From a virus, in IMG/VR virus record IMGVR_UViG_3300032087_003792, positions 1 to 34,755 of that record: DNA of 34,755 bases; one strand, given 5' to 3'. This document shows positions 538 to 34,688 of this stretch, one piece after another. The notes under the pieces were generated by a model. That model made no database searches. It saw nothing but the letters and a program-made list of their open reading frames with translations, and was not told the origin of the DNA. A program made the translations under genes and the position numbers. How positions within the stretch are numbered: position 1 is the stretch's first letter; the number at the start of each line of letters is the position of its first letter.

Positions 538-767
538 GGTCTTGCCCTCGGTCTAATTACAGATGATACAACATCAGTTTGAACGCAGGTCATGTAAATG
601 TCATTACCATAGAGTTTGACGATGTGGTCATAGATCGGGTCAGCTAAGCCCTGATCCATGACTTGCTGGCAATGGCTTTCTGAGGCGTAGACGATGCTTG
701 CGACGGGGGCTGCGTTGTGCGCAGCCAATTCGTAGTCGATCATCAGGACGGTAAAAAACTCAATCAT
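534..767 (-). CDS. Hypothetical protein (77 aa)
   Basis: Not recognised. The start is the ATG at 765-767 (MIEFFTVLMIDYELAAHN). It has a textbook AGGAGGT six bases upstream and overlaps the stop of the 235-aa gene as TAATG, which rules out the upstream in-frame alternative. The product is small and mixed alpha/beta in character with no clear motif. Because it is translationally coupled to the Tas-like protein gene, it is the immediate downstream neighbour of the repeat-array system, but no functional link can be read from its sequence. Confidence 0.65.
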   Translation of the reverse strand: MIEFFTVLMIDYELAAHNAAPVASIVYASESHCQQVMDQGLADPIYDHIVKLYGNDIYMTCVQTDVVSSVIRPRARP

Positions 768-1474
768 TACGCCACCTCCTTCCATTCGTTATACAGATCG
801 CGCACCAAGCGTTTTGTCATGTACCTCATCGCACGATTATGAGCATGCCCATCCGTCTTCACGCGCTCGCGCTCATACTCCTTGCGCTTGTCGTAAATCA
901 CGCGATACGGTCCCGCGTTTTCATCCTTACCTTGCGACTTCAATAAGCTGTCTCCAATCGTCCAAAACACGGAATGGCGTGACGGGTTGTATCCGTGCAC
1001 CAAAGCCATCTCCGCGTTACTGTGCTTGCGCTGACGCTCTCCATCAATCACGGCAAGCCCCGCGCGTTTGTAAATTCCGTCAAGCTCTTTTTCGTATGCC
1101 ATGAAGTCGCCAACCTCTCCGACAATGCCGGCTAAGCCTAAGTGACCGAAGCCTTTCACCTTATCGACAAATGACGCGGCAGGTAGTTTCTTGGCCAAAT
1201 CGATAAGCAGCTTTTCAAAACTACCTCGCGCTTCCAGCAACGGCTCGCGGGCGTTAAAGAACGGCTGCGTTGCTGCGATATAAACGAATGCAGCCTCACC
1301 CTTTTTTAGCGCAGCAAACAGCTTGTTTGCTTCCTTAATATCGCCATCGCAAAACCCTCTGCAAACTGCCTTGATCTGCAAGACCAGCTTACCCTCTGCC
1401 CGAACCATGTTCTGACGGTTGCGCCATGTGCGGTAAATTTGTGCAATCGTTTCATCTTCGTATCTTTTGTCCAT
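767..1474 (-). CDS. Tas-like Nop/IS110-C-terminal domain protein (TIGR-associated, TasA-like)
   Basis: This is a 235-residue protein encoded directly beside the repeat array. Residues 1-100 look like a helical, coiled-coil-type region. Residues 106-124 (VKGFGHLGLAGIVGEVGDF) match the helix-hairpin-helix-like signature that opens the IS110/IS116 transposase C-terminal domain, followed by a conserved-type Gly-Leu (139-140), a basic loop, and a C-terminal helical bundle ending KRLVRDLYNEWK. That layout is shared by IS110 C-terminal domains and the Nop domain of box C/D RNPs and Tas proteins. The IS110 N-terminal RuvC/DEDD domain is absent, and no HNH or RuvC motif is visible. Inferred role: binding guide RNAs from the adjacent array, for binding rather than cutting DNA. 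AAGGAG precedes the ATG. An alternative is a domesticated IS110 remnant, but the dual-spacer array argues strongly for a Tas protein. Confidence 0.78.
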   Translation of the reverse strand: MDKRYEDETIAQIYRTWRNRQNMVRAEGKLVLQIKAVCRGFCDGDIKEANKLFAALKKGEAAFVYIAATQPFFNAREPLLEARGSFEKLLIDLAKKLPAASFVDKVKGFGHLGLAGIVGEVGDFMAYEKELDGIYKRAGLAVIDGERQRKHSNAEMALVHGYNPSRHSVFWTIGDSLLKSQGKDENAGPYRVIYDKRKEYERERVKTDGHAHNRAMRYMTKRLVRDLYNEWKEVA

Positions 1475-1499
1475 TTCTTTCTCCTTTTTTAGTTGCGAG

Positions 1500-1981
1500 G
1501 CGCAATTGCAATGGCATTTCTGCGAAAGGGGGGTGGCCTCTGGTTATTGGGCGAAAGCATCTTAACATTTCTGCGTTGGTCTATTGGCCCAAATTCGGTG
1601 GGGGCGTAGGTAGAGTGGCATTTCTGCAAGCTGCCGATGGCCCCCTGTGATTGGTTGGGGAGAGCGAAGACATGTTGGCATTTCTGTGTACTGCTACTGG
1701 CTCTCGCCCAATGGTGCGCCTCAAGGTTGGCATTTCTGCACCGTCTGCTTGGCACCAAATAAAACTGGTGGGGGCGTGCCCCTGAGGGCATTGCTGCGTG
1801 TTTCCGTTGGCCCCCTGTGATTGGTTGGGAAGGGTGTAGCAAGGTTGGCATTTCTGCGATATCTACTTGACCCTTCCCTTGAGTGCGCACCTTGAGTAGC
1901 ATTTCTGCGTAAGGATTGTGGCACCATATGATTGGTTGGGGCGCGCTCTTCTTGGCATTTCTGCGCAACACGTTTGGCCCC
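1500..1981 (-). repeat. TIGR-like dual-spacer guide RNA array (9 units, 18 spacers of 9 nt)
   Basis: On the plus strand a 13-nt block, consensus TGGCATTTCTGCG, starts at 1512, 1563, 1616, 1676, 1728, 1786, 1846, 1897 and 1953. Every copy is flanked on both sides by exactly 9 hypervariable nucleotides. Left spacers begin at 1503, 1554, 1607, 1667, 1719, 1777, 1837, 1888 and 1944; right spacers at 1525, 1576, 1629, 1689, 1741, 1799, 1859, 1910 and 1966. Outside the spacer pair lie GCG (GTG once) on the left and TGGC (TGAC once) on the right. Between units is a second block of 20-29 nt, often able to form a hairpin. The spacer-block-spacer core is always 31 nt. This matches published TIGR arrays (two 9-nt spacers per guide RNA of about 36 nt). 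Strand is assigned from the operon: the array is the 5' leader of the Tas-like gene on the minus strand. Confidence 0.88.
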
Positions 1982-1988
1982 ATAAACA

Positions 1989-2907: not shown

Positions 2908-3473
2908 CAGTACGCCTCCCCGTTTACTGTGACTTTGGTAGGGCGCTGGATGATGGTTTGCCTTACGCCGTCGCGCTCGCCGTGCTCTTTAACCTTGGCC
3001 ATGCAAACCACTTCGGCGCCCTTAGTCCAGCATTGTGATCCTTTGTAGACGATGACATTTCCATGAATATCGCGGCAGAGGTTGATGTAGCTATGCCCAA
3101 AGTCATGGTAAAAACAGATCGTGTGGCTGACTGTAAGGCGCCATTCTTGGCGCTCTCCGACTACACCTACGTGCTGGCTTCCAGCATCCCTCGCAGCCCA
3201 CTCTGCGCGTCTTTTAGCGTCGCCTTCGATGCTTTTACGGACTGCTTTGGTTTGGCCCTCAGTCAACGCACCCCACTCATGGATGGCTTCCTTCATGTCA
3301 CCCCAGAAGCCTTTGTGGCCGTTGTCATAGCTTTTGCAGTTGATGTAAGTTTCCAACTCGTCAGCGTCAGGGTTTGCCTCAAGCCACTTTTTATAACGTG
3401 TTTTGCTGGCGTTTGCTTTAATTTTGTTTTGGATTGCGCGCTCATAAGCAGCTTCGTTTTCGATGTAGGGCAT
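2907..3473 (-). CDS. Protein with C-terminal OB-fold-like domain (188 aa)
   Basis: This is the first gene of the left operon. Residues 1 to about 95 are helical and charged. The C-terminal part from about residue 97 runs: a Gly-Glu-Arg turn, alternating beta strands with HTICFYHDF and GNVIVYKGS, a motif like AKVKEHGERDGVRQTIIQRP, then a strand. That spacing is common in phage proteins carrying a single OB-fold-like nucleic-acid-binding domain, which I recognise by pattern only. The ATG at 3471-3473 has GGAG six bases upstream; an in-frame GTG at 3485 is less likely. Possible role in single-stranded nucleic-acid binding; not certain. Confidence 0.6.
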   Translation of the reverse strand: MPYIENEAAYERAIQNKIKANASKTRYKKWLEANPDADELETYINCKSYDNGHKGFWGDMKEAIHEWGALTEGQTKAVRKSIEGDAKRRAEWAARDAGSQHVGVVGERQEWRLTVSHTICFYHDFGHSYINLCRDIHGNVIVYKGSQCWTKGAEVVCMAKVKEHGERDGVRQTIIQRPTKVTVNGEAY

Positions 3474-3488
3474 TTTTCTCTCCACTCC

Positions 3489-3530
3489 TGATACCCCCTG
3501 TTAACATGTGGTGAACAGGCGGTCAACAAA
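3489..3530 (-). promoter_or_regulatory. Candidate promoter and operator for the left accessory operon
   Basis: Between the terminator at 3528-3558 and the first minus-strand gene there is an imperfect palindrome, CCTGTTAAC-ATGTG-GTGAACAGG (3497-3519, 8 of 9 arm positions pairing). On the minus strand TTGACC is followed 16-17 nt later by TTAACA/TAACAG, a weak sigma70-like pair that overlaps the palindrome. A repressor bound there would cover the -10 region. The palindrome contains TGTTAACA, which recurs at 26160, 26171 and 28976. Promoter identity is tentative; the palindrome is directly visible. Confidence 0.4.
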
Positions 3531-3558
3531 AAAATGGCCCCGCTCGAAAGCAGGGCCA
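3528..3558 (-). terminator. Rho-independent terminator ending the virion gene transcript
   Basis: On the minus strand TGGCCC and GGGCCA (plus 3553-3558 and 3535-3540) form a stem that can be extended inward by partial pairing, followed by seven T residues. It lies downstream of the long minus-strand structural operon, separating it from the left accessory operon. Transcripts from 6207 and beyond must pass antisense to the 59-aa plus-strand gene before reaching it. Confidence 0.85.
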
Positions 3559-3605
3559 GTCCAACAGGGAGGAGAAGTAAAAGAACAACCTTCTACACCA
3601 ATAGC

Positions 3606-3633
3606 TTTACACATACTTCACAAGAAGTACAAT
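3606..3633 (+). promoter_or_regulatory. Candidate sigma70-type promoter for the 59-aa plus-strand gene
   Basis: TTTACA (3606-3611) and TACAAT (3628-3633) each match five of six consensus bases and are separated by 16 bp. The start would fall near 3640, about 35 nt before the ATG at 3675 and just upstream of its AGGAGG. Confidence 0.5.
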
Positions 3634-3674
3634 AATGTTTAAAACAAGTTAACGTAATATTTTAGGAGGATACG

Positions 3675-3854
3675 ATGGGTGAAGACCAGTACAGAGAGCT
3701 TATTGACAAGCTGAAGCGCCCGCACCGCGTAATGAACCAGAACGCGCTTCACCGCGCGTGCGAGGAAGCCGCCATACTCATAGAGCAAATGGAGGCGCGC
3801 ATTAAGGAGTTGCAGACGTCGCCTAGTAAGAAGGCATCCCCAAAGCGCGCATGA
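3675..3854 (+). CDS. Small plus-strand hypothetical protein (59 aa)
   Basis: The gene reads from an ATG with a perfect AGGAGG six bases upstream, on the strand opposite to its neighbours. The product (start MGEDQYRELIDKLKRPHRVM) is hydrophilic and probably helical: a short coiled-coil-like segment of about 25-47 (ALHRACEEAAILIEQMEARI) and a basic Ser/Lys/Pro tail. Its 3' end overlaps the 3' end of the 794-aa minus-strand gene by 32 nt. Being separately promoted and divergent from the accessory operon suggests a regulatory or host-interaction role, but no known family is recognised. Confidence 0.72.
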   Translation: MGEDQYRELIDKLKRPHRVMNQNALHRACEEAAILIEQMEARIKELQTSPSKKASPKRA

Positions 3855-6207
3855 GTTGCTGCGTGGGGCTTAGTCTCTCGTCTTGCTGGGCCTGCCCGAT
3901 ACCTAAGCTCATTGCGCCCCTTTGAACCGCTTCTGCGGCACTTTGCCTACCCGCTTGTGCGCGCTCTATGGCCGGCGCCAGAGACTGCAAGCGCGACGCC
4001 TGTAGCAGCAATTGCTCCGGCGTCATGCGTTGTGTTAAGACAGGCGCCATCTCTTCCGTCAGCCGCTCTATGCGCTGCGACTGAGGCGTGCTGCCGACGA
4101 GCGCCTCTGTCGCCTTTTTGGCGCCGACCGTAAGCAAGCCCTGCTCTCCGACTTCTTCCGCTAAAGACTTGCCGGTGATTTCCTTAAGGCGCTCCATTAA
4201 GACTTGACGATTAAACGTCGCTGAGTTTCTCGACGCCAGCGCCCGCATCATCATGGCCTCAGACGTGTCGCGGATCTGCTTGCCGATGATGTCTGCGTCC
4301 TCGTCGCCAAGGACCATGCGCAGCTTCGTCGCCACGGCGCGCGTGTTCATTGCCTTTAAAGTTGCCAGAGCTTCAATTATTTCTTGCTCGCTTGACGCTG
4401 TTACCGGCTTTTTAGCGTTTGCCGCAATCTCGTCTATGCGATTGCGCAGAGCTTGGCGAAGCTGCCCTACGGATACGTCATCCATATTCTCTATGGAGAG
4501 CATAACATCTTCGCGCGTGACTTTTGGGTTAAGTATGTTGTCGCCAAGATCCGCGGCGTTTCTCATATCATCGACATCGTTAGCAACGGCGCGCGCGTCT
4601 TTATACGATGGGCTCACGTCATCCAGCGATTTCCGCAAGTTAAATGCGAATTTGCGCAGTGACATATACTCAGACATATCGCCGGCGCGCTTAGCTACAT
4701 CGCTTAAACCAAAAAGCCTTCTTGATAAAACGTCTACCATTTCGACCGTAGGCACGCGAAATACTGTGTAAGATCCATCCGCGTTTGAGGTGACGCTTAG
4801 ATCCGCTCTTTGTGAGGCTGGGATGTTTTCAAACACCTCATTTAGCTCGGCCTCTTTTACACGCTGCCCACCCAAAAAGTCAGTAGGGACACCGTCCCTT
4901 CTTAACGCTTTTTTAGCTTGTGAGAGTTCTTCTGGCGACGCTCTATTGACAAGCTCAATAACTCTGGCGCCTTTTTCTGTGTCTGGGTCAATTTTGACAC
5001 TATACGCCTCACCATATATTTTTTGACGCTCTTCTCTGGTACTCTCCATGATCCCAGACTTTTGCGTTTTAATGCCGCCATCTTTAGTCACCTCGCCAAG
5101 CACGGTGTCGAGAGTTTTATTTAAATCGTTAGACGCTGCAACGGCTGTCTCGTTTAAGTTGTCTGTTGCTATTTTGGCGCCCTTGCCGCTGCTTTGTGAA
5201 ATCGTGTCAAGCAGGCTTGCGGTATTCGGACCCACCGCAACCAAGCTGCCGTATGGACCAGAGTTTTCTACGGACTGCACGGCGTCCGCCGCGTCCTTGG
5301 CCAAGGTATCCGCCACCACTGATGCCGCTTCTCTTTTGAAGCCAAGGCTTTCGATAATGTCCTTGACTGGACGTTCTAAGTATTTCCCATACCCGTAGCC
5401 TACGGCGCCCGCAATTGGTGCACCCGCGGCGCCAAAGAGCCCGCCGCCAACGGCGCCGGATGTTGCCTGCCTCTGCGCCTCATCGACGCCGCCTTCGCCA
5501 TATCCGGCAATTAGCCCCTCCAAGCCGCCAAGGGTGGTCCCATAAAGGCCACCTTGGCCTATTTTACCCACCATACTGTCGGCGCGCAGCGCCGGCGCAA
5601 AAGGAGCCGCCGTTGCCACGCCGGTGGCGAGGCGGGAGGCGCCAGAGGTAATAGGTGCCTCTTGCTCTCTGCGCTCTATGGCTTGGCCAATTAATCCCGT
5701 GGCCGCTTCTGGCGAGATGCCTTCGCCGCCCTCAAATAAATACGGAATGCCGGTTTTACTTATTGTGGAAGCTAATTGGCCAGCTACCGGCTCAACGTAT
5801 CCACGCACAAACGGCATGCCTTTTGCGGCGGATAGTACGCGCGTCGGAAGCTCTCCAATTAATTCTTGAGCGGTTTCTCCTTTTACGACTGAGCCAACGT
5901 CTCCCTTGGCGGCTCTGATCTGCGCTATTCTTGCTGGATCTGTCGTCGAGAAGCCTTCGTCGAAATATGTCTCCGCCCCGTCCGGCATCTTAACGATCAT
6001 GCCGCCGCCAGTAAATCGCTCGACAACTTCCGTTCCGGCAGGCGCCGGCTTATCGTATCCCTGCAATTTGATTTTATTAGCAAAGCTGGAAAAGTTGTCG
6101 AAATTATCCGTGTAATGCTTATTATATAAGTATTCGGCTAATGTCTGGTCGTCCATCTCGCTTAGCTCAGGGTTTTTAGATCTGAAACGCTTTAAAAAGT
6201 CTGACAT
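3823..6207 (-). CDS. Large internal virion / DNA ejection protein (794 aa)
   Basis: Located last in the virion operon, after the transglycosylase gene, where short-tailed phages carry proteins that are ejected with the DNA. The N-terminal 60 residues have a TLAEYLYNKHY-type helical motif. Residues about 200-285 are extremely Gly/Ala-rich with mildly hydrophobic runs (GLYGTTLGGLEGLIAGYG; GAVGGGLFGAAGAPIAGAVG) that could insert into a membrane. The remainder is long, helical and charged, ending in a Gln/Ala-rich segment. AAGGGG precedes the ATG. No catalytic motif is visible. The role as ejection protein is inferred from size, composition and position. Confidence 0.7.
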   Translation of the reverse strand: MSDFLKRFRSKNPELSEMDDQTLAEYLYNKHYTDNFDNFSSFANKIKLQGYDKPAPAGTEVVERFTGGGMIVKMPDGAETYFDEGFSTTDPARIAQIRAAKGDVGSVVKGETAQELIGELPTRVLSAAKGMPFVRGYVEPVAGQLASTISKTGIPYLFEGGEGISPEAATGLIGQAIERREQEAPITSGASRLATGVATAAPFAPALRADSMVGKIGQGGLYGTTLGGLEGLIAGYGEGGVDEAQRQATSGAVGGGLFGAAGAPIAGAVGYGYGKYLERPVKDIIESLGFKREAASVVADTLAKDAADAVQSVENSGPYGSLVAVGPNTASLLDTISQSSGKGAKIATDNLNETAVAASNDLNKTLDTVLGEVTKDGGIKTQKSGIMESTREERQKIYGEAYSVKIDPDTEKGARVIELVNRASPEELSQAKKALRRDGVPTDFLGGQRVKEAELNEVFENIPASQRADLSVTSNADGSYTVFRVPTVEMVDVLSRRLFGLSDVAKRAGDMSEYMSLRKFAFNLRKSLDDVSPSYKDARAVANDVDDMRNAADLGDNILNPKVTREDVMLSIENMDDVSVGQLRQALRNRIDEIAANAKKPVTASSEQEIIEALATLKAMNTRAVATKLRMVLGDEDADIIGKQIRDTSEAMMMRALASRNSATFNRQVLMERLKEITGKSLAEEVGEQGLLTVGAKKATEALVGSTPQSQRIERLTEEMAPVLTQRMTPEQLLLQASRLQSLAPAIERAQAGRQSAAEAVQRGAMSLGIGQAQQDERLSPTQQLMRALGMPSY

Positions 6208-11118: not shown

Positions 11119-12134
11119 GAGTTTAACTCGTAATAAGTTACAAAGATTGCGCCTTGCGAGCCGGCACCACCGCCCACGTAACGGGTCGCGTCGCCGCCGC
11201 TTTCCGTTGCCCCGCCGCCTCCACCGCCTCCGTAATTTGCTCCGTCGGCGCCATAGACGGGGTAATTAACGCTGGCATTACCGCCGCCGCCGCTGAAAGT
11301 TCCAGTAACATCAGATCCCCACTCGGACGGCTTAATTGTAACACCGTTCCCGAAATCTGGCGAGCCACCGTCGCTTGCTGCAGTCTGGTCACCGCCAACA
11401 TTAAGCCCAAAACCTCCTGTGCCTGTGTAATTACTACTACCGCCGGACCCCGTACCGCCCGCAGAAGGCGAACATTGCCCCCAATATGAATGCGTTGTGG
11501 CTGTGCTATTTTGGCCAACAGGTGTCGTGGTTGTCGGTGTAGTTGTAGCCAAACCCTGCCTACTTCCAAACCCGCGCAGACCGCCTGTGGCGCTTATTGT
11601 AGTGCCATCTCCGTCAGGATTAAAAGACGTTGTACCTCCATTATAGCCAGATTTAGCACCCTGACTGGCATTTGATTGTCTTGATACTCTGGCGCCTCCA
11701 GCGCCAATAGAGATGACTGCGCTTGTTATACTGTCATTTGAAACACTAAAGCTGCGAAAGGCAACTCCGCCGCCGCCGCCCCCGCTTGCGACATCCTCTC
11801 GCCCACTATCTTGGGCCGCGCAGCCGCCTGATCCGCCGCCGCCAACGACATAAACATTATATTGCACACAGTCAGTCTGTGAGGGTGTCCATGAAGTCCC
11901 ACTTGTGATAGTTTGAGTGGTGCCTTTTTTCCGTAAAATGCGAGACTGGCCTCGAAAATCAGAAAAAGACGTTTCCGCGCCGGAGGCTGGAAGGGTGTCA
12001 GGGACAGAGGCAATGCCACCATTAAACGAGCCGTTAAGAGAAATAGGGTCTGTGCCGCCAAAGTAAGTGCGTAACTCACTCATGGACACGGGAGTATTGC
12101 CATGACCGAAATTATCTGAAGATGTAATCGTCAT
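11115..12134 (-). CDS. Glycine-rich tail fibre adhesin (339 aa)
   Basis: Residues 1-70 carry a phage fibre attachment module: MSELRTYFGGTDPISLNGSFNGG, then an ETSFSDFRGQSR motif, as in many cyanophage and marine-phage fibres. From about residue 95 the protein is dominated by polyglycine runs (VGGGGSGG, GGGGGG twice) separated by variable Ser/Thr/Asn segments, and ends QGAIFVTYYELNS. This resembles glycine-rich (polyglycine-helix sandwich) receptor-binding tips, in which variable loops between glycine helices choose the receptor. Receptor binding is inferred. Confidence 0.72.
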   Translation of the reverse strand: MTITSSDNFGHGNTPVSMSELRTYFGGTDPISLNGSFNGGIASVPDTLPASGAETSFSDFRGQSRILRKKGTTQTITSGTSWTPSQTDCVQYNVYVVGGGGSGGCAAQDSGREDVASGGGGGGVAFRSFSVSNDSITSAVISIGAGGARVSRQSNASQGAKSGYNGGTTSFNPDGDGTTISATGGLRGFGSRQGLATTTPTTTTPVGQNSTATTHSYWGQCSPSAGGTGSGGSSNYTGTGGFGLNVGGDQTAASDGGSPDFGNGVTIKPSEWGSDVTGTFSGGGGNASVNYPVYGADGANYGGGGGGGATESGGDATRYVGGGAGSQGAIFVTYYELNS

Positions 12135-12625
12135 TATGCACTTCCAAATGCTGTAATGTCACCCTCTGCGGTCACTTCGCCCGTAGTCGATAGCTTAAAA
12201 ACATCAACGCTACTGTACTGAAACTTTAAATCTGTGTCGGAAACGTAGATCTTCCAGTCTCCAATTTCAAAGCTGGTTCCAGTGACAGAGCTTGTCGATG
12301 TAAGCGCCCCGCTGGCAATTTCACCCGCAGAGCCATAAATAACCGCCTTTGAGTTTACCACTGTATTACTGACGGCAGTGTTAAGTAGGTCAAGCTCTGC
12401 GGTAGTTACAGACGCAGTGCTCAACTTATTTAATTCAGCCGCCGTCGAGGCAACCGCGGTGCCGTTAATTGCCCATGAGCCTTCCGTGAGATCCGGCTCA
12501 ATTGTTACTTTTCCAGTGCCAGTACCGTTTAACGTGCTTTGAAGGGCTAAGAGACCCGTATTAAGAGTAGTACCCCATGTGTCAGTTGACGCACCCACGG
12601 TCGGGCGTTCGATCGAAATAGCCAT
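12134..12625 (-). CDS. Tail fibre/structural protein (163 aa)
   Basis: The start MAISIERPTVGASTDTWGTTLN and the ASTAAELNKLSTASVTTAELDLLN segment (the recurrent VASTAAELN motif of phage fibres) identify a fibre shaft or linker protein, followed by short beta repeats (IGDWKIYVSDTDLKFQYSS). The ATG has AAGGAG upstream after a 29-nt gap from the next gene. It probably assembles with the polyglycine adhesin encoded immediately downstream. Confidence 0.65.
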   Translation of the reverse strand: MAISIERPTVGASTDTWGTTLNTGLLALQSTLNGTGTGKVTIEPDLTEGSWAINGTAVASTAAELNKLSTASVTTAELDLLNTAVSNTVVNSKAVIYGSAGEIASGALTSTSSVTGTSFEIGDWKIYVSDTDLKFQYSSVDVFKLSTTGEVTAEGDITAFGSA

Positions 12626-12654
12626 GCTAAACTCCTTTTGTGCAAAATATCACA

Positions 12655-13899
12655 CTATGCGGCTTCCGTCCATGTTTCCGCACTTACCGTTTGATCAGTC
12701 CAAATCTCCGACCCTGTTGTTTGATCGGTCCAAGTCTCAGCCGTGAGCGGTTGCTCTTCCCACACAAAGCGCCCCAACTCTACCTGCGTACTGCTTGTAA
12801 TATCTAGCAGGGTTATATTGTGTATCTGGGTAATATTAGCCAGATCCACAGTTGAAGCGCCAGTTGTAATTGATGTCCCTGCCAAAACTACGTTTACAGT
12901 AATTGTGGATGCATCAACCTGTGCAGCGCCCGTAGTAATGTCGGTTGATGTCAGAGCAACATTTTCAACGCAAGTTGAGTTATCAACAGAAACAGAAACA
13001 TTTATTTGATCTAAAGAAAGATTGTGAACTTGAGTAATTGCAGCTAAATCAAGAGTGGCGCCAACGCTAATTTGATCTGAGCTTAAATTGTGGTCCTGTG
13101 AGATAGAAGAATTATCAACAGAAGATACGCAAGAAATTTCGGTAAGTGTAAAGTTTTCAGTTAATGCACTACTGTCAACAATTACAGTATCAACAGTAAC
13201 ATCACGATAGCTAGGATAAATAAAGTTACCCATCGCATTGCCGTGAACAGTACAATAATATTTAAGAGTGTCAGGAGCATCTAAAGGCACAGCAAATGTA
13301 ACCGTAGCACCTGATGTTCCTTCAGTGCCGGATACCGTTACACCAGTAGTATACGGATTATCATTTTCATCTCTAAATCTAAACGGATGACCGCTGTTGC
13401 TTGAATGTGAAACATCAAACACATAAGTTGTGCCGCGTTGGATCATCCACGGCAAATTGCTTTCTTGTAAAATTGGCCTATAATCACCGCCAAGATGCGC
13501 TGGACCTAAATAAAATACATTTGAGCCAGATTGATCTAATACTTGAACAGACCAATCTTCAGATGCTGGATGCAACGCATCATTTTCAGCGCAAGTAGAT
13601 GTATCAACAGTTGCTGAAACAGATATACTTGTTCCCGTTAAAGCGTGTGGATCAGTCGCAACAATCGTTGCATCATCAACAGTAACTGAAACATTTATAG
13701 GGTCTAAGCCATAAGCTAACACTTGCGTAAGCGTTGCGTCATCAACAGTTACAGAGCAAGTAATTGCATCCAAGCCATAAGAAACAGCGCCTGCGCCAGC
13801 GACATATGTAAAACTTGCTAAACTATTATTTTTTGCAAACGAATAATTAGAAAGCTCTAAAAGCTCTGGGTTTCTTAAAAGTTTTTCTACATTATCCAT
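12655..13899 (-). CDS. Repeat-rich fibre protein with embedded cupredoxin-like domain (414 aa)
   Basis: Both halves consist of about 20-residue degenerate repeats of the type ...ISVSVDxAxxTxxHxLxxxxI..., likely beta-strand units. Between them, residues about 115-230 form a separate domain: RGTTYVFDVSHSSNSGHPFRF followed by YYCTVHGNAMGNF. H171 (or H165), C216, H219 and M223 have the order of type-1 copper ligands, though C-x2-H-x3-M is one residue tighter than in plastocyanin. Similar domains occur in marine phage fibres. The C-terminus repeats WTDQT three times. Copper binding is a hypothesis. The gene is AT-rich compared with its neighbours. Confidence 0.65.
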   Translation of the reverse strand: MDNVEKLLRNPELLELSNYSFAKNNSLASFTYVAGAGAVSYGLDAITCSVTVDDATLTQVLAYGLDPINVSVTVDDATIVATDPHALTGTSISVSATVDTSTCAENDALHPASEDWSVQVLDQSGSNVFYLGPAHLGGDYRPILQESNLPWMIQRGTTYVFDVSHSSNSGHPFRFRDENDNPYTTGVTVSGTEGTSGATVTFAVPLDAPDTLKYYCTVHGNAMGNFIYPSYRDVTVDTVIVDSSALTENFTLTEISCVSSVDNSSISQDHNLSSDQISVGATLDLAAITQVHNLSLDQINVSVSVDNSTCVENVALTSTDITTGAAQVDASTITVNVVLAGTSITTGASTVDLANITQIHNITLLDITSSTQVELGRFVWEEQPLTAETWTDQTTGSEIWTDQTVSAETWTEAA

Positions 13900-14171
13900 C
13901 AGTCATCTATTGCATCAGAAAATTGTGTTTTTGCTGCTGCATAACATTGAGCAATAACATCATCCGATGAACTCCAATCAGGAATAATACTGCGCATAAA
14001 ATAAGACGCATAAGAAGATGCATAATCAGAAGCAGCATCCTTTGATGGATAGAACATCAACATATATTCCATTTCATTTTTATTAATAATGTTGATATTT
14101 TCTATGCGAACATATTGATCAGAAAAGTTCTGATTAGCTTCTGGGTTTACATAATCCATTATCAAAGCCAT
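13899..14171 (-). CDS. Small tail-region protein (90 aa)
   Basis: Not recognised. The product is acidic (ends FSDAIDD) with a Tyr/Ser-rich helix (DYASSYASYFMRSIIPDW). It is encoded between two large fibre genes and coupled to both (TGATG and TAATG). It is AT-rich like the flanking fibre genes, so it probably travels with them. It could be a fibre assembly or connector protein. Confidence 0.55.
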   Translation of the reverse strand: MALIMDYVNPEANQNFSDQYVRIENINIINKNEMEYMLMFYPSKDAASDYASSYASYFMRSIIPDWSSSDDVIAQCYAAAKTQFSDAIDD

Positions 14172-16204
14172 TAGCTCACCTCCACATCATCAATCCAGTA
14201 ATTTTGATTAGACCCATTCCATATTGCTTTAAAAGCACATCTGGCAAAACCATCTTGAGCCGCAGAAAAAGTTACAGAAACAGCCTCCCAAGCATTATAA
14301 GCAGAAGATGTAAATTCCGTCCTCGAAATAAAAGCACCGTCTGAATTAAAAATATCAAACCAAGCATCGCCTGTTGCCATTGTGCTTCGGTTTGTCCGCA
14401 AATAACCTGTAAACGTATAAGAAGTTCCACTCAAAACAGGAATATATATTGGATACATACTGTGCGATCTATTTGGATCACCCTTTGGCGCCTGAGTATG
14501 ATAACTAGAAGCATAATTATCTAATTGCCATTTTAAACTTTTACCTGTTGTTCTTACTGTTCCAGTATCGGGCACTAAATAAGGAAAATACCTTGCTTGC
14601 CTATTATATGCAGTCTGCAAGGAGGCAGCTTGAGGCGTAATCATAATAGGTGTATCAGTAAACTCATATATAGTTGCATGATCATTGTTTTGCGTAGGAA
14701 ATCTATAATCAGAACTAAGAGTGGTTGGACGAGCTATTGGTACTTTTACAACATATGGCTGAGATGCTTCTCTTAAATTTTGTGTAGAGATATTTAAATA
14801 TCTTGTAGTTGTTTGATAATTGAATGCATAAGGACGTAGTGTTGAGTTTGTTGCGGTAAAACCAGTTGGCAAAGGAAAGTCACTTGTTAAAGCCATTTCA
14901 TGTCCACTTGGTTTAGTAAGAGAATAAGATGAACCCTCTTCCATAGTTCCATGCCAATTTACAGTTGTATTATTATTGTTATTTCCATCTTCAACTTTAA
15001 AATTTGTGTATGTTATTGATACTGTTCCAGTAATATCATAAGCAAGGTAAAGCTCTTGGCACCCCCCTGACGAAGATTGGTGATGCACTGGTCCTTGATC
15101 AATAGTAAGATTATGACAATTGCTTATTGTAAATAATTTAGCTGGACAAAACCGCGTCCATAGCTCTCCAACAGTTATATTTGCATTGTTATTTCTACCA
15201 TTTAAGTAATATCCTCGCTCCCCATTTATTGGGCCATTTTGATACGAATAAACATAATCAAAGTTTGCAGTTAATGTTATTCTATCTGTTGTAAAGCTGC
15301 TATCGTTGTTCCAAAGTTGATCATTTTTTAACGTATATCTAAAAAAGTTTAATGGGTTATACATTATTAAATTAGTAATATCTATGTTTATATTTTCATA
15401 TGGTGCGCAAAAATATGGGGATGATGAAAGACTGCCCCCCAACCAAAGCTGTCTAAGTTTTAAAGTTTTTAAAGGCAGACCATAAGTATTAAGGTTTGCA
15501 GTAGAAGATGAATTATTTGTAGCTAAAATTATTGTATTGGGACAGTCTAATTCTGTATAGTTTTCTGTAGACCCAGTTGGGTATAACCCCGAACTGCTTG
15601 CATATTCAGAAGTTGCCCCTCCAGAATTAAGATAAGTAGTTCCATTGCCAGTTGTCTGTGAGTTACAGATACTTACTGCCGTTCCGTCAGTGGTTTGAGC
15701 GGTTTCAGAGGTCCAACCGTCAGTTGTAGGAATGTAGTAATTGCGACTTCCAGCCCCAATATAAAGAATATTAGAACTATTAGATGGTCCACTAAAAATA
15801 GTCATGTCAACTTTTTGGACTGTAAATTCATAATCTGTGCCAGAAACATATTGAGTAGCTCTAACTGGAACAGGAATATAATTATTTGAAGCGCCAGTTA
15901 AAACGCCGCCAGAAACGCTAGAGTTTATTTTCCAAAAAGTACCATAGTCAGGAAAGTACAAAACATCATATAAACTATATGTTAAATTTTGAGTTCCCAC
16001 TACTGTTAGCTGATTTCTTTGATTACCATTTGTGATTTTAACAGTGTCAGTCCCACTTTCTAAAATGCTGGAAATTGTTCTTGCTTTTACACGACAAACA
16101 TCACCGTCAACCCACGTACCATTTTCATTCCAGCCATACGGATCAGCGTATGTGCCAGTTGCACCACTGGTTGAAATAAAATGATCTTTCCACTTGATAG
16201 CCAT
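14171..16204 (-). CDS. Tailspike/fibre-like protein with C-terminal carbohydrate-binding-like domain (677 aa)
   Basis: A large Ser/Thr/Asn/Tyr-rich beta protein. The N-terminus (WKDHFISTSGATGTYADPYGW, then VDGDVCRVKARTISSI) is a type seen at the start of phage right-handed beta-helix surface proteins. Residues about 250-450 have spaced hydrophobic strands compatible with a beta helix. The last 120 residues (GTSYTFTGYLRTNRSTMATGDAWFDIF through NYWIDDVEVS) match the pattern of a carbohydrate-binding jelly-roll module. The gene is markedly AT-rich with long poly-Asn codon runs, unlike the portal or terminase genes. The Shine-Dalgarno is weak. Host-surface binding is inferred. Confidence 0.65.
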   Translation of the reverse strand: MAIKWKDHFISTSGATGTYADPYGWNENGTWVDGDVCRVKARTISSILESGTDTVKITNGNQRNQLTVVGTQNLTYSLYDVLYFPDYGTFWKINSSVSGGVLTGASNNYIPVPVRATQYVSGTDYEFTVQKVDMTIFSGPSNSSNILYIGAGSRNYYIPTTDGWTSETAQTTDGTAVSICNSQTTGNGTTYLNSGGATSEYASSSGLYPTGSTENYTELDCPNTIILATNNSSSTANLNTYGLPLKTLKLRQLWLGGSLSSSPYFCAPYENINIDITNLIMYNPLNFFRYTLKNDQLWNNDSSFTTDRITLTANFDYVYSYQNGPINGERGYYLNGRNNNANITVGELWTRFCPAKLFTISNCHNLTIDQGPVHHQSSSGGCQELYLAYDITGTVSITYTNFKVEDGNNNNNTTVNWHGTMEEGSSYSLTKPSGHEMALTSDFPLPTGFTATNSTLRPYAFNYQTTTRYLNISTQNLREASQPYVVKVPIARPTTLSSDYRFPTQNNDHATIYEFTDTPIMITPQAASLQTAYNRQARYFPYLVPDTGTVRTTGKSLKWQLDNYASSYHTQAPKGDPNRSHSMYPIYIPVLSGTSYTFTGYLRTNRSTMATGDAWFDIFNSDGAFISRTEFTSSAYNAWEAVSVTFSAAQDGFARCAFKAIWNGSNQNYWIDDVEVS

Positions 16205-17212: not shown

Positions 17213-17905
17213 TTACATGTTATTCGCTGCATTACTTACAGCGGCTTTAGCGTCCATAGCCTGCGCGGCAAGGTCAGTTGGGGCTCTCAAGCTGAAGCCC
17301 GCTGCCTTCACGTCATCTAAAGATAGCGTTTGCTGCGACTTCACGCTCGCCATTACTTGCTGAGAAACTGCGTTTTGAAACACGGCATACCGCGCATCAT
17401 CCATAAGAAACGGGGTCGCGTGAAGAAGGCTTGTATACAAGTATAAATGCGGCGCGTCAGTTAAGAGCCAGTTTGTCCCGCTATCAAGACCGCCAACAAG
17501 CGTTGGAATACGCTGGTAATAGTTAATGTCTAAAGTGCCAGATGCCGGCGTGGGCGTCACCACAATTTGACGACCAATAATTGCAAAAAAGCGTGGATTA
17601 GCAGCCCCTCGCGTGCGCGTGCGGCGCAGCATAGTAAGTTGCTGCGGAGAAATTTGCTCCAGTGGTTCGTCTTCCGTAGACCCAACCTGCGCGTAAACTA
17701 TCTCCAAGGCGTCCGCTGGCAAAGTTGCCTTTCCAGACGTAATCGTAATGCCGGTTGACTGTGTGATCATATCAGCTTGGCGCAACACATCGTTTAATGT
17801 GCTTTCCGCAAGCCTAATAAAGTCAGGTATCGTTGAACTGAGATCGGCGCGGTTTAACCAGCTTGCAATTGCAGCTTTTAAATCTGCATATGTTGATAGT
17901 GCCAT
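17213..17905 (-). CDS. SU10-like head-tail adaptor protein, copy 1 (230 aa)
   Basis: Same fold landmarks as its neighbour: YADLKAAIASWLNRADL, IPDFIRLAESTLNDVLR, NPRFFAIIGRQIVVTPTP, LDINYYQRI, and WLLTDAPHLYLYTSLLHATPFLMDDAR. It is followed by a longer, helical, Ala-rich C-terminal tail of about 50 residues that the other copy lacks. The adaptor family forms a 12-subunit ring below the portal. AAGGAG lies upstream of the ATG. Two copies may form two stacked rings, or one may serve a different joint. Confidence 0.75.
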   Translation of the reverse strand: MALSTYADLKAAIASWLNRADLSSTIPDFIRLAESTLNDVLRQADMITQSTGITITSGKATLPADALEIVYAQVGSTEDEPLEQISPQQLTMLRRTRTRGAANPRFFAIIGRQIVVTPTPASGTLDINYYQRIPTLVGGLDSGTNWLLTDAPHLYLYTSLLHATPFLMDDARYAVFQNAVSQQVMASVKSQQTLSLDDVKAAGFSLRAPTDLAAQAMDAKAAVSNAANNM

Positions 17906-17942
17906 GCCTGTCTCCTTGACGGCTGCTCATAACGCGGCTTCA

Positions 17943-18245
17943 TTACAGCGCACCCGCTCTCGTTCTAAACACTTGGTTGTTACTGTCGTTCAACCACTTT
18001 CTAAACGCCTTCGGATCGTCTGCAATCCCTTGGCGCTTCAACTCATAATACACTGAAAGCGGAATGGATGCTACCTTATTGACGTCCCTGTATTTGCTTG
18101 GCGTGTCATTGTATTGGCGCTTGTTCGCTTCGGCAATCGCCGTGACGTCCTGTATCTTTTCGATAACGTATTCACCCTTGTCTGTAACATGCCAATACTC
18201 GGTAATGCCTGTAAGGGGATCGTGGCCAAATAAACGCTTTTTCAT
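17943..18245 (-). CDS. Hypothetical virion-region protein (100 aa)
   Basis: The start is the ATG at 18243-18245 (MKKRLFGHDPLTGITEYWHV), which has GGAGG five bases upstream; the frame remains open further but the extension crosses an intergenic hairpin and is not protein-like. The central part has a QYNDTPSKYRDVNKVASIP segment and a helical DPKAFRKWLND end. Proteins of this type are encoded next to the capsid gene in several phages with DUF5309 capsids; function unknown. Confidence 0.65.
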   Translation of the reverse strand: MKKRLFGHDPLTGITEYWHVTDKGEYVIEKIQDVTAIAEANKRQYNDTPSKYRDVNKVASIPLSVYYELKRQGIADDPKAFRKWLNDSNNQVFRTRAGAL

Positions 18246-18264
18246 ACTTTCCTCCAAAGTGAAG

Positions 18265-18284
18265 GGGGCGACCGAAGCCGCCCC
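18265..18284 (-). promoter_or_regulatory. UUCG-loop hairpin after the capsid gene
   Basis: On the minus strand GGGGCGGC-TTCG-GTCGCCCC forms an eight-pair stem (one G-U) capped by a UUCG tetraloop, located between the capsid stop and the next gene. No T-run follows, so it is probably a partial terminator, an RNA-stabilising stem or a processing site that lets capsid mRNA exceed downstream mRNA. The structure is visible; the function is inferred. Confidence 0.6.
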
Positions 18285-18292
18285 GCTTAGAC

Positions 18293-19246
18293 TTATGATA
18301 CGTTGAGGTCTGCCACGACGGCGTGCGCCGCTTCGTTGAGAACCTTCAAGCCGAACTCCGCGATGACCATAGACTTGGAGGCGTCGCCGGTTTTGCTGAG
18401 CTCTACGTTCTGGATCGGACGCAGGTAGCATACAGATGCATACTCTGGGTCTAGCAGCCACGCATCGCGCTCACGCGAGAAGCGGTTTGCAACCACATTC
18501 AAGGTGCCGAAGTCAGACATGTAAACGTCTGCCGCACCAATGATTGTCGTCGGGCTATCGCTTGGCGCCATGTAACGCTGAGCCGCGATACCAGCAAATC
18601 CTGATACGACCGTCTTATTGTGTGGCCCCACCATAAGGATTGTTGGCTGACCGCCAGAAACGAATGCTTGCTGCATCGCGTCTTTCAGCATGGCTTCAGT
18701 GAAATCGCGCTGAGTACCGTCTGTACGCGCGGTTGTACCGTCACCAGTTGTCAGTCCACCGCTGGTCCCGACGTTTTCGTTGGTCGCAATCCACGCACCA
18801 AGACCACCCGTTTCGCGTGCAGTTGAAGAGTTACCTGCAACCTGAGCGTTATTATCCGTAAGGGTAGCTTCGATGTCACGCTTGAGCTCTTTTCCGCGTT
18901 TTGCGATTTGATAGCTCAGCTCGTCGTTGCGACCGGCAAGGTCTTGCGCGGCAAGGTTGTCAGCGACAATGGTTGTACGACGACGGATGTGTGTGTAGTT
19001 ACCGACGCGGGTCGTTGCAGATGTCGCGTCAAAAGACGATACATCATCACCATCGATGATGGCCGTTGTGCTTGTTGATGCCAAGCTGTCAGTCTGCCAC
19101 TCGAAGTATGTGTTGGAAACATTTTCAGATCCGACGTTACTTTGGAATGGAACTTCTTCTGGAGAGATGGACGAAATGATGTCCGCCAAGCTCTCACGAA
19201 TACCGACCGCGCTATGCGAGGTAAATGTGTTGGTTACGATTGCCAT
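18293..19246 (-). CDS. Major capsid protein (DUF5309 / SU10-like, 317 aa)
   Basis: An HK97-fold capsid of the DUF5309 type: N-terminal GIRESLADIISSISPEEVPFQSNVG, then TYFEWQTDSL, the RVGNYTHIRRRTTIVADN segment, RGKELKRDIEATL, the PTILMVGPHNKTVVSGFAG region, and RDAWLLDPEYASVCYLRPIQNVELSKTGDA near the C-terminus. These are landmarks of this family, in order, at about the usual length. AGGAGG precedes the ATG. The upstream neighbour is the scaffold and the downstream neighbours are adaptors, the normal head-gene order. Confidence 0.88.
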   Translation of the reverse strand: MAIVTNTFTSHSAVGIRESLADIISSISPEEVPFQSNVGSENVSNTYFEWQTDSLASTSTTAIIDGDDVSSFDATSATTRVGNYTHIRRRTTIVADNLAAQDLAGRNDELSYQIAKRGKELKRDIEATLTDNNAQVAGNSSTARETGGLGAWIATNENVGTSGGLTTGDGTTARTDGTQRDFTEAMLKDAMQQAFVSGGQPTILMVGPHNKTVVSGFAGIAAQRYMAPSDSPTTIIGAADVYMSDFGTLNVVANRFSRERDAWLLDPEYASVCYLRPIQNVELSKTGDASKSMVIAEFGLKVLNEAAHAVVADLNVS

Positions 19247-33893: not shown

Positions 33894-34688
33894 CTAAGTT
33901 GCCTCTGAAAATTTGAACGCATAGGGCGGGATTTGCAGCGTCTGTAGTTCGCCGTAATCATAACCCCACACGCCCGTGTGTTGCGCCGTGGCATACGCCG
34001 CCAGCGCGTACTCGACCGCATGATGCCCTTCCTCAAGGGACAAGAGGTCCAGTTCGTATACGCCCACCTTGTAGGGCGCTTTCTTTTGCACCGCGATAAA
34101 GATGAAGCGGTCTATTTCGTGGCCGTCGAAGGCCATGCATCTGCGGTAAAATTGATCCTGTATGTGGTAGCCAAAGTTCGCCGCCTGCTTCGCAAAGCCC
34201 GCCGGTGAGCTATCGACGGTCGTCTTGACGTCGATCAGCGCCGCGATGTCTTTACGCCATGCGTCTGGGCGGCAGCGCATGTTGACGTTGGTGTTTGCGT
34301 CGATTGCAAACACGCTGGCTTCGCAGACCAAGTCGCCGCTGAGCAACGCCGCCGCCGCGGCATTTGCACGCACGGCGTCCGCCATATTCTTGGCCAAGGC
34401 GTAATCGCTTTCGGTCAACAGTATTGCGCCCGCCGCGTCCGCTTCGTCCTTGGCTTCGGTCCACGCCTTGCCCCTGCGCGTTTCGGGTCCGCACCATACG
34501 CTGTTGCTGCGATGCGGCTCCAAGATCAGCGTGTGCGTGGCGGTGCCTACGTCAAATGCCGCGCTTGGCTGGTACTCGCCGTACTTAAAGTCGGCAAGAC
34601 TTTCCATGGCGATCTTCTTGGCGCCTGACGCGCTCAGCGATGGGTCGAGGTGATACTCCTCGTTTGACATATCATAAATTACGGTCAC
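33894..34688 (-). CDS. PD-(D/E)XK exonuclease, RecE/Cas4-like (264 aa)
   Basis: The nuclease core reads FDVGTATHTLILEP (45-58), E123, RPDAWR (D142), LIDVKTT (D153, K155) and QxxxY at 177-181, matching RecE-type and Cas4-like exonucleases. It probably degrades one strand of duplex ends for annealing-based recombination together with the SSB-like protein. The gene starts with GTG, overlapping the upstream TGA (GTGA), behind GGAGGAGG. Confidence 0.83.
   Translation of the reverse strand: MTVIYDMSNEEYHLDPSLSASGAKKIAMESLADFKYGEYQPSAAFDVGTATHTLILEPHRSNSVWCGPETRRGKAWTEAKDEADAAGAILLTESDYALAKNMADAVRANAAAAALLSGDLVCEASVFAIDANTNVNMRCRPDAWRKDIAALIDVKTTVDSSPAGFAKQAANFGYHIQDQFYRRCMAFDGHEIDRFIFIAVQKKAPYKVGVYELDLLSLEEGHHAVEYALAAYATAQHTGVWGYDYGELQTLQIPPYAFKFSEAT

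Follow-up and report, generated by a model that had tools for sequence, protein, structure and literature searches.

Record IMGVR_UViG_3300032087_003792 of IMG/VR is a virus record of 34,755 bases, analysed over its whole length and referred to here as the window, which carries the genes of a tailed phage from sea water (an SU10-type portal, a terminase and a Toprim/AAA helicase-primase). On its minus strand lie a gene for a 235-residue protein homologous to the Tas proteins of TIGR-Tas systems and, directly upstream of this gene, an array of nine stem-loop units with two 9-nucleotide (nt) spacers each. We consider it highly probable that the locus is a TIGR-Tas system of the TasA, stem-loop type with guided binding of double-stranded DNA (dsDNA), a judgement that covers both the class and the guided binding; membership of the class is well supported by sequence and unit anatomy, and the function is predicted. 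The class itself is already known and the phage locus adds a member to it, whereas the way in which the paired guides would be read is possibly new. We propose tentatively, with a confidence a little short of even, that in two unrelated groups of phages with stem-loop TasA systems both guides of a unit read one dsDNA site of 17 base pairs (bp) with a central overlap of 1 bp, that the published rule (18 bp and no covariation between spacers A and B) holds for other types only, and that guides renewed wholesale, slot by slot, on a fixed scaffold make the system a fast-changing nuclease-free weapon or regulator directed against DNA outside the phage's own lineage.

The Tas-like protein and its array

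A profile of 17 relatives of the 235-residue protein matches one sequence of the Protein Data Bank (PDB), 9mty_A (E = 8.6e-12, residues 69–233). The record names it an IS110-type transposase C-terminal protein; by our reading it corresponds to TasR as described by Faure et al. (2025; PMC12045711), the TIGR paper, judged from the length of 331 residues given there for TasR. The score with the NCBIfam model NF052498 (TIGR_Tas_endo), 81.5 bits (E = 7.9e-23), falls short of the curated threshold of 100, and phrog_4285, annotated 'transposase', matches with E = 1.4e-15. The profile search that the earlier note on this DNA had suggested as a check thus gave strong sequence homology to Tas proteins and, together with the dual-spacer units, upholds the TIGR-Tas-like identity proposed there. 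In a Pfam search with the protein no family was found above its cut-off and no RuvC or HNH family at E values up to 1, so that we regard the protein as TasA-like, a putative Tas protein with no matched nuclease family. The AlphaFold model, in which the C-terminal half is poor, has a mean predicted local distance difference test (pLDDT) score of 58; at this low confidence it displays long helices at the N-terminus. The C-terminal Nop/IS110-type domain is assigned from sequence. Foldseek searches with this model placed chains of TasH–tigRNA complexes at ranks 2, 4, 7 and 9 (E = 0.74–1.8), with no match below 0.001, and the case for a Nop fold comes from sequence only.

All units are read here in the direction of the gene. 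Each consists of a stem arm, (C/T)CA (box C), the 9-nt spacer A, C or T, the loop repeat GCAGAAATGCCA, the 9-nt spacer B, C plus a purine (box D) and the matching stem arm. Nine copies of the loop repeat, as read on the minus strand, are present at 1512–1964 (five exact, two with one mismatch and two with two mismatches), and units 2, 4, 6 and 8 deviate from the consensus loop. With up to two mismatches, GCAGAAATGCCA matches the window at 12 places, where shuffled sequences would lead one to expect 4.5 and none of 100 shuffles reaches 12; the three matches outside the array are at 11273, 24097 and 24183. The nine repeated blocks with 9 variable nt on each side that the earlier note had described are therefore all present, and the gene follows the array directly on the same strand, as stated there. 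Its claim of fixed borders holds in part: a border is found on each side of every unit, but the borders are partly variable, unit 3 having TCA and CA. Outside the borders, the arms of each unit are reverse-complementary, with 52 of 54 possible pairs formed by arms of the same unit, compared with a mean of 40.2 pairs and a maximum of 50 in 5,000 deals of the arms among the nine units. A hairpin between neighbouring units gives poorer pairing than these own-arm stems. The earlier note, which described the units on the plus strand, had overlooked these arms.

The array occupies the whole gap between the upstream neighbour gene and the tas gene and is probably the 5′ leader of the latter, with transcription predicted. 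The dual-repeat subtype is characterized by alternating edge and loop repeats of 8–12 nt, and in the window the edge position is taken by variable palindromic stems. In the published stem-loop type, palindromic flanks replace the edge repeats, box C and box D are kept and a loop repeat may remain; the stem-loop array described in section 9 of that paper is cut at variable places outside the hairpin (PMC12045711). As the array is of the stem-loop type, the guide RNA of about 36 nt foreseen in the earlier note is not expected.

Table 1. The tas locus of the window (positions refer to the window; units are numbered from the end far from the gene)
Feature	Positions	Strand	Details
tasA-like gene, 235 residues	767–1474	-	homology to 9mty_A, NF052498 and phrog_4285
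Stem-loop TIGR array, nine units	1496–1982	-	unit parse, shuffle test
Unit 1	1937–1982	-	spacer A 1966–1974, loop repeat 1953–1964, spacer B 1944–1952, stem GGGGC/GCCCC
Unit 2	1881–1926	-	spacer A 1910–1918, loop 1897–1908, spacer B 1888–1896, stem GTGC/GCAC
Unit 3	1827–1878	-	spacer A 1859–1867, loop 1846–1857, spacer B 1837–1845, 9 bp stem GGGAAGGGT/ACCCTTCCC
Unit 4	1770–1815	-	spacer A 1799–1807, loop 1786–1797, spacer B 1777–1785, stem GGGGGC/GCCCCC
Unit 5	1712–1757	-	spacer A 1741–1749, loop 1728–1739, spacer B 1719–1727, stem TGGTGC/GCACCA
Unit 6	1660–1705	-	spacer A 1689–1697, loop 1676–1687, spacer B 1667–1675, stem GAGAGC/GCTCTC
Unit 7	1600–1645	-	spacer A 1629–1637, loop 1616–1627, spacer B 1607–1615, stem GGGGGC/GCCCCC
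Unit 8	1547–1592	-	spacer A 1576–1584, loop 1563–1574, spacer B 1554–1562, stem TTGGGC/GCCCAA
Unit 9, nearest the gene	1496–1541	-	spacer A 1525–1533, loop 1512–1523, spacer B 1503–1511, stem GAGGC/GCCTC
Upstream neighbour gene, 182 residues	1989–2537	-	weak DNA-binding match, phrog_1725, E = 0.023

The locus resembles the TIGR-TasA stem-loop system of a Peromyscus gut contig (PMC12045711) in its nuclease-free Nop protein, in dual spacers (8–12 nt) between box C and box D, in palindromic flanks and in a loop repeat that is sometimes conserved there; it differs in having an array that takes up the gap ahead of tas, a well-conserved loop repeat and covarying ends of spacers A and B. The sections of Faure et al. 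(2025) used here do not mention the phage family of the window. With the dual-repeat TIGR-TasR and TasH systems (PMC12045711; PDB entries 9w02, 9w03 and 9vzx are TasH by their record titles) it shares Nop homology, a CCA-like box C, a spacer length of 9 and the order box C–A–loop–B–box D, whereas no RuvC or HNH domain was found here, stems take the place of edge repeats and box D is CG-like rather than UG, the TasR motifs being CCA and UG. The IS110 transposases with their bridge RNAs have the same C-terminal domain family and two guides per RNA (PMC12045711), but the phage protein has no detected nuclease domain, is accompanied by a many-unit array and scores far below the cut-off of the IS110 NCBIfam model (18.6 against 140 bits). 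Box C/D small nucleolar ribonucleoproteins (snoRNPs) likewise combine a Nop domain with a closed stem in which two guides lie between the C and D boxes (PMC12045711); the present locus is that of a bacterial virus and suggests a DNA-type target. Finally, its units have a dual-spacer anatomy, unlike the single repeat type of CRISPR-Cas.

Related loci and turnover of spacers

A protein scan returned 53 viral loci, and a second scan with alignment returned 55, including two new ones (L202 and L210) that were left unparsed. Arrays are present in 51 of the 53 loci, with 3 to 13 units parsed in each and the tas gene kept at 235 or so codons; in the two loci lacking an array (L034 and L048) the contig begins at or inside the gene. 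In total, 472 units were parsed, including the nine of the window, with a lenient threshold and with the stem used to detect weak units, and a few of them are probably chance matches (for example, a distant one in L007). They represent 270 distinct spacer pairs, or 189 units after removal of near-duplicates. At least five of six stem pairs, with G–T counted, are formed in 458 of the 472 units, a count that is biased upward as the stem aided the detection of weak units. Among the column pairs tested in the 189 units, those of the stem have the strongest covariation (z up to 85); the boxes covary as well, with z = 23 inside the loop (L1–L10) and z = 22 for the pair at the stem base. The box C dinucleotide is CA in 381 and CG in 67 of the 472 units, and box D starts with C in 430 units in the loop and in 435 at the edge. 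For the inner pair, the loop (L1–L10) has GC in 360, AT in 53 and GT in 41 units, and the stem base has GC in 271, AT in 108 and GT in 65. Two peptide patterns scanned against bacterial genomes turned up no Tas relative, and neither did a search of plasmids at E = 1e-3.

While the scaffold is kept, the 9-nt segments differ from one close relative to the next, a clear outcome in favour of the earlier note, which had named conserved segments as a refutation of its reading. Between the window and the related locus L003, the tas genes are 95.4% identical in nucleotides and the scaffold bases 83%, compared with 32% for the spacer bases, and none of the eight spacer pairs of L003 is found in the window. 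Locus L001, which encodes an identical protein, has all nine spacer pairs of the window, and the pair of unit 8 is common to the window, L001, L023 and L024. For arrays with tas identities of 95–99.5%, the spacer identity is 0.44–0.47 and the scaffold identity 0.84–0.90; the comparison was made for 1,035 pairs of 46 arrays over the five gene-nearest units, the rest of the 54 arrays being short or cut. Spacers are thus replaced wholesale rather than merely drifting, although there are also variants that differ at one or a few positions. The gene-nearest units of 52 arrays hold 35 distinct spacer pairs. Near-complete turnover of spacers on a fixed scaffold does not appear in the sections of Faure et al. 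(2025; PMC12045711) used here.

Stem-loop arrays also occur in isolated phages. A search with the Tas protein of a Microcystis phage gave 83 phage records, of which 76 are Mycobacterium phages with Tas-like proteins annotated as transposase, DNA-binding or hypothetical. In 16 of 18 mycobacterial regions the tas-like gene is preceded by a gap with five stem-loop units (for example, L281 at 2105–2443 and L287–L301), and an exonuclease gene (Cas4/RecB-like) lies within a few genes downstream; in the other two, Rich and prophiFSAT01-1, there is no such gap before the gene. Variants of the mycobacteriophage units recur at the same slot, in differing combinations between phages, and units may be exchanged by recombination through the conserved scaffold. 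As these mycobacteriophages are isolates and have a laboratory host, the stem-loop arrays that precede their Tas-like genes bring the biology within reach of experiment.

Arrays were also noted by eye in other phages. Gordonia phage Morrissey (L282, 2082–2353) and Rhodococcus phage Peregrin (L283, 1998–2437) each have a stem-loop TIGR-like array beside a Tas-like gene, and Rhizobium phage RHph_X2_25 (L118, 2340–2720 and 3800–4080) has palindromic units on both sides of the gene for a 351-residue Tas-like protein. Microcystis phage Mvi-JY20 (L119, 3505–3840) carries a dual-repeat TIGR array, and the adjoining Tas protein, at 193 bits, passes the NCBIfam cut-off.

Complementarity of the spacer ends

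Because the family has dozens of related arrays in phages, its evolutionary variation can be used to infer how the guides are read. Mutual information among spacer positions singles out the last positions of the two spacers, A9 and B9 (z = 12.6, the next 2.7). These bases are Watson–Crick complementary in 92 of the 189 units (A–T 29, T–A 30, G–C 19 and C–G 14), compared with a mean of 47.9, a standard deviation of 5.85 and a maximum of 72 in 20,000 permutations, and wobble pairs are near expectation (G–T 13 and T–G 8, about 12 and 11 expected). Among all 81 A–B position pairs, the complementarity of A9–B9 has z = 7.4 and the next best 2.4. Five lineages tested separately gave P values of 0.025, 0.001, 0.0002, 0.0038 and 0.0008. 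The mycobacteriophage arrays, for which the parser matches 77 of 80 phage-slot entries (one more unit has no readable box D), display the same feature: 26 of 46 distinct units are complementary, with a permuted mean of 14.4 and one of 20,000 permutations reaching 26. When permuted within slots, the mean is 18.4 and 88 of 20,000 reach 26 (P about 0.004). Units of the same slot have a common ancestry, so that the P values are optimistic.

The TIGR paper reports no obvious covariation of spacers A and B, which are hence described there as unlikely to overlap, and cuts by TasR that leave 8-nt 3′ overhangs (PMC12045711). The cut position is worded there in two ways, and the head-to-tail geometry therefore rests on the overhang. 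By our own geometry, overhangs of 8 nt mean that A and the reverse complement of B, rc(B), follow each other head to tail along a single strand and that A9 and B9 come together in the middle. If the two spacer footprints overlapped by 1 bp, these two bases would be complementary. The covariation suggests a single dsDNA site read by both spacers with such an overlap, and we tentatively propose a joint site of 17 bp. No such overlap rule is found in the sections of Faure et al. (2025; PMC12045711) used here.

In the proposed mechanism, the array would be transcribed together with tasA or ahead of it, and each unit would fold with its closed stem, presenting the two 9-nt spacers between box C and box D. 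A TasA dimer would hold one unit, whose spacers A and B would pair with opposite strands of a single dsDNA site, and the two footprints would share one base pair, the target being A + rc(B) overlapping by 1 (17 bp). Binding with no nuclease would most likely block transcription or replication of DNA belonging neither to the phage itself nor to its sisters. The biological role and the DNA binding free of a protospacer-adjacent motif (PAM) that the earlier note put forward would be carried over by analogy from the TIGR-Tas family; the defining paper (PMC12045711) leaves open what nuclease-free TasA proteins do and which targets they have in nature.

Several points weigh against this interpretation. 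With regard to the class, the NF052498 score is below the curated cut-off, the structural model is poor and three other neighbours of the tas locus are poorly kept (in 7, 5 and 4 of the 53 loci). With regard to the overlap, complementarity of A9 and B9 is found in about half of the units only (four of nine in the window). By eye, it was seen in none of four units of Gordonia phage Morrissey and in one of six readable units of the Microcystis phage dual-repeat array; the overlap rule is therefore not universal. The sister phages gave no clear excess of sites under this rule, and exact scans of large collections gave matches about as expected by chance.

The other explanations carry estimates that are not mutually exclusive with ours. 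The first of them shares the TIGR-TasA class and guided dsDNA binding and disputes the overlap only: A9 would pair with B9 in the RNA as a contact inside the RNA–protein particle, and the target would be 18 bp or gapped. We regard this as unlikely. In the figure-eight tigRNA (PMC12045711, section 8) the 3′ ends of the spacers could, by our own inference, meet at the centre, and TasR is reported to tolerate gaps of 0–2 bp with no obvious A–B covariation (PMC12045711). The contact is disfavoured because A9–B9 has no excess of G–T, while G–T is frequent in the real RNA pairs of the same units; the marine set of window-related units is enriched for Watson–Crick pairs only. In a plain hairpin, A9 faces B1 and not B9. 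The mycobacteriophage set has 6 G–T among 46 units.

It is improbable that the units instead guide RNA binding, as in antisense control of host or phage mRNAs by a box C/D snoRNP-like particle. The box C/D-like anatomy and the Nop domain would suit such a role, but single-stranded RNA offers no base pair that could be read from both strands, and TasR was inactive on RNA substrates in the TIGR paper (PMC12045711). Still harder to sustain is the view of the array as a cis-acting 5′ leader of the downstream gene (a site of regulation, recombination or packaging) with no guides: the array does fill the whole gap before the gene, and an AGAGGC/GCCTCG stem closes the gene-nearest parsed unit in 43 of 52 arrays, but a leader has no need for two 9-nt segments replaced wholesale with covarying ends. 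Least credible is a decayed IS110 insertion element whose transposase would survive as its C-terminal half in the present protein and whose bridge RNA would have left the repeats as remnants. The 'transposase' label of phrog_4285 and the 18.6 bits of the IS110 model point to it; against it stand the cut-off of that model, the lack of any matched nuclease family, a gene kept at nearly constant length and a conserved multi-unit array with covarying stems.

Search for targets and other features

The 1 bp overlap, if true, changes the sequence with which natural targets are to be sought and makes a precise prediction. With this rule, 132 complementary marine pairs gave one site with one mismatch and 19 with two mismatches in the sister phages, compared with 0–4 and 9–18 in six permutations, and 32 mycobacteriophage units gave nothing at zero or one mismatch in stretches of ten phage records; there is therefore no sign of self-targeting or sister-targeting.

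Other geometries were scanned in the sister phages with gaps of 0–4, and two of the 20 combinations of geometry and gap gave an excess: A + rc(B) with gap 2 (five distinct 17/18 sites, permuted mean 0.55, maximum 3 of 20) and rc(A) + B with gap 0 (three sites, permuted mean 0.35, maximum 2). The gap-2 sites form two unit–site families, in which arrays of L025–L042 match an intergenic site and a small-terminase-like gene of L006–L022. In a relaxed-pattern scan 40 contigs matched, nine at that intergenic site and 31 elsewhere, and these targets were left as a weak lead. A reading of the spacers as coding targets was rejected: the variants have no general 3-periodicity, and when A + rc(B) is taken with overlap 1 the number of amino-acid changes is no lower than random (z = 0.4). 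A few spacer families resembled codon drift, and other geometries gave z down to -4.3 for amino-acid changes. A peptide-level search of the sister phages gave 269 matches against 309 for permuted pairs, a difference that is at least partly an artefact of the pairing rule.

In viral contigs, one unit searched with gaps of 0–2 matched seven contigs, six of them at gap 2 and in differing genes (two are the same phage), and a second unit at gap 2 matched one contig; by our own reading, the gap-2 excess of the first unit is attributable to a shared reading frame. Overlap-1 17-mers matched ten contigs, three with the same gene, and in another scan nine contigs, two with the same gene. Of three mycobacteriophage 17-mers scanned against 50,697 phage records, two had no match and one had seven matches of 16 bases, all in Pseudomonas phages.

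In bacterial genomes, TTGTTACCATCATAGAT matched 32 contigs, with about 30 estimated by chance. Three of the matches, two in Rhodobacteraceae SB2 and one in the single-amplified genome (SAG) AG-470-P20, share their context just before the start codon of an open reading frame (ORF) for a small membrane protein. SB2 has a further copy with one mismatch, and in AG-470-P20 an ORF that we read as tyrosine-recombinase-like is nearby. A fourth marine alphaproteobacterium, AG-457-F14, has TTGTTACCATCATAGAT in a different gene, and a cluster of four Clostridia contigs among the matches indicates that such clusters arise by chance. Among 195 genomes (AG-470-P20 and relatives), the exact match is in AG-470-P20 alone and a one-mismatch site is in two; a second unit gave no exact and four one-mismatch matches in SB2 and relatives (195 genomes). 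None of the other spacers matched that Rhodobacteraceae element better than permuted pairs. We regard the marine Rhodobacteraceae site as a weak lead to a natural target, suggestive and not significant.

A conserved leader of about 600 bp before the small membrane-protein ORF recurs in marine Rhodobacteraceae (L272 at 859–1452, L273 at 17899–18490, L275 at 3252–3888 and L274 at 1–76). SB2 has three such places, one being just a 76 bp stretch where a contig ends, and AG-470-P20 has one, beside the tyrosine-recombinase-like ORF; the leader looks like part of a mobile element.

In the window, the 182-residue gene upstream of the array has a relative in 48 of the 53 loci (tblastn, E = 1e-5), and the positions sampled lie upstream of tas. 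An Exonuclease VIII-like (DUF3799) gene is located at 33894–34688 (phrog_412, E = 2e-77). The G+C content falls to 36–43% at 12001–16000, compared with 47–61% in the remaining 2 kb steps.

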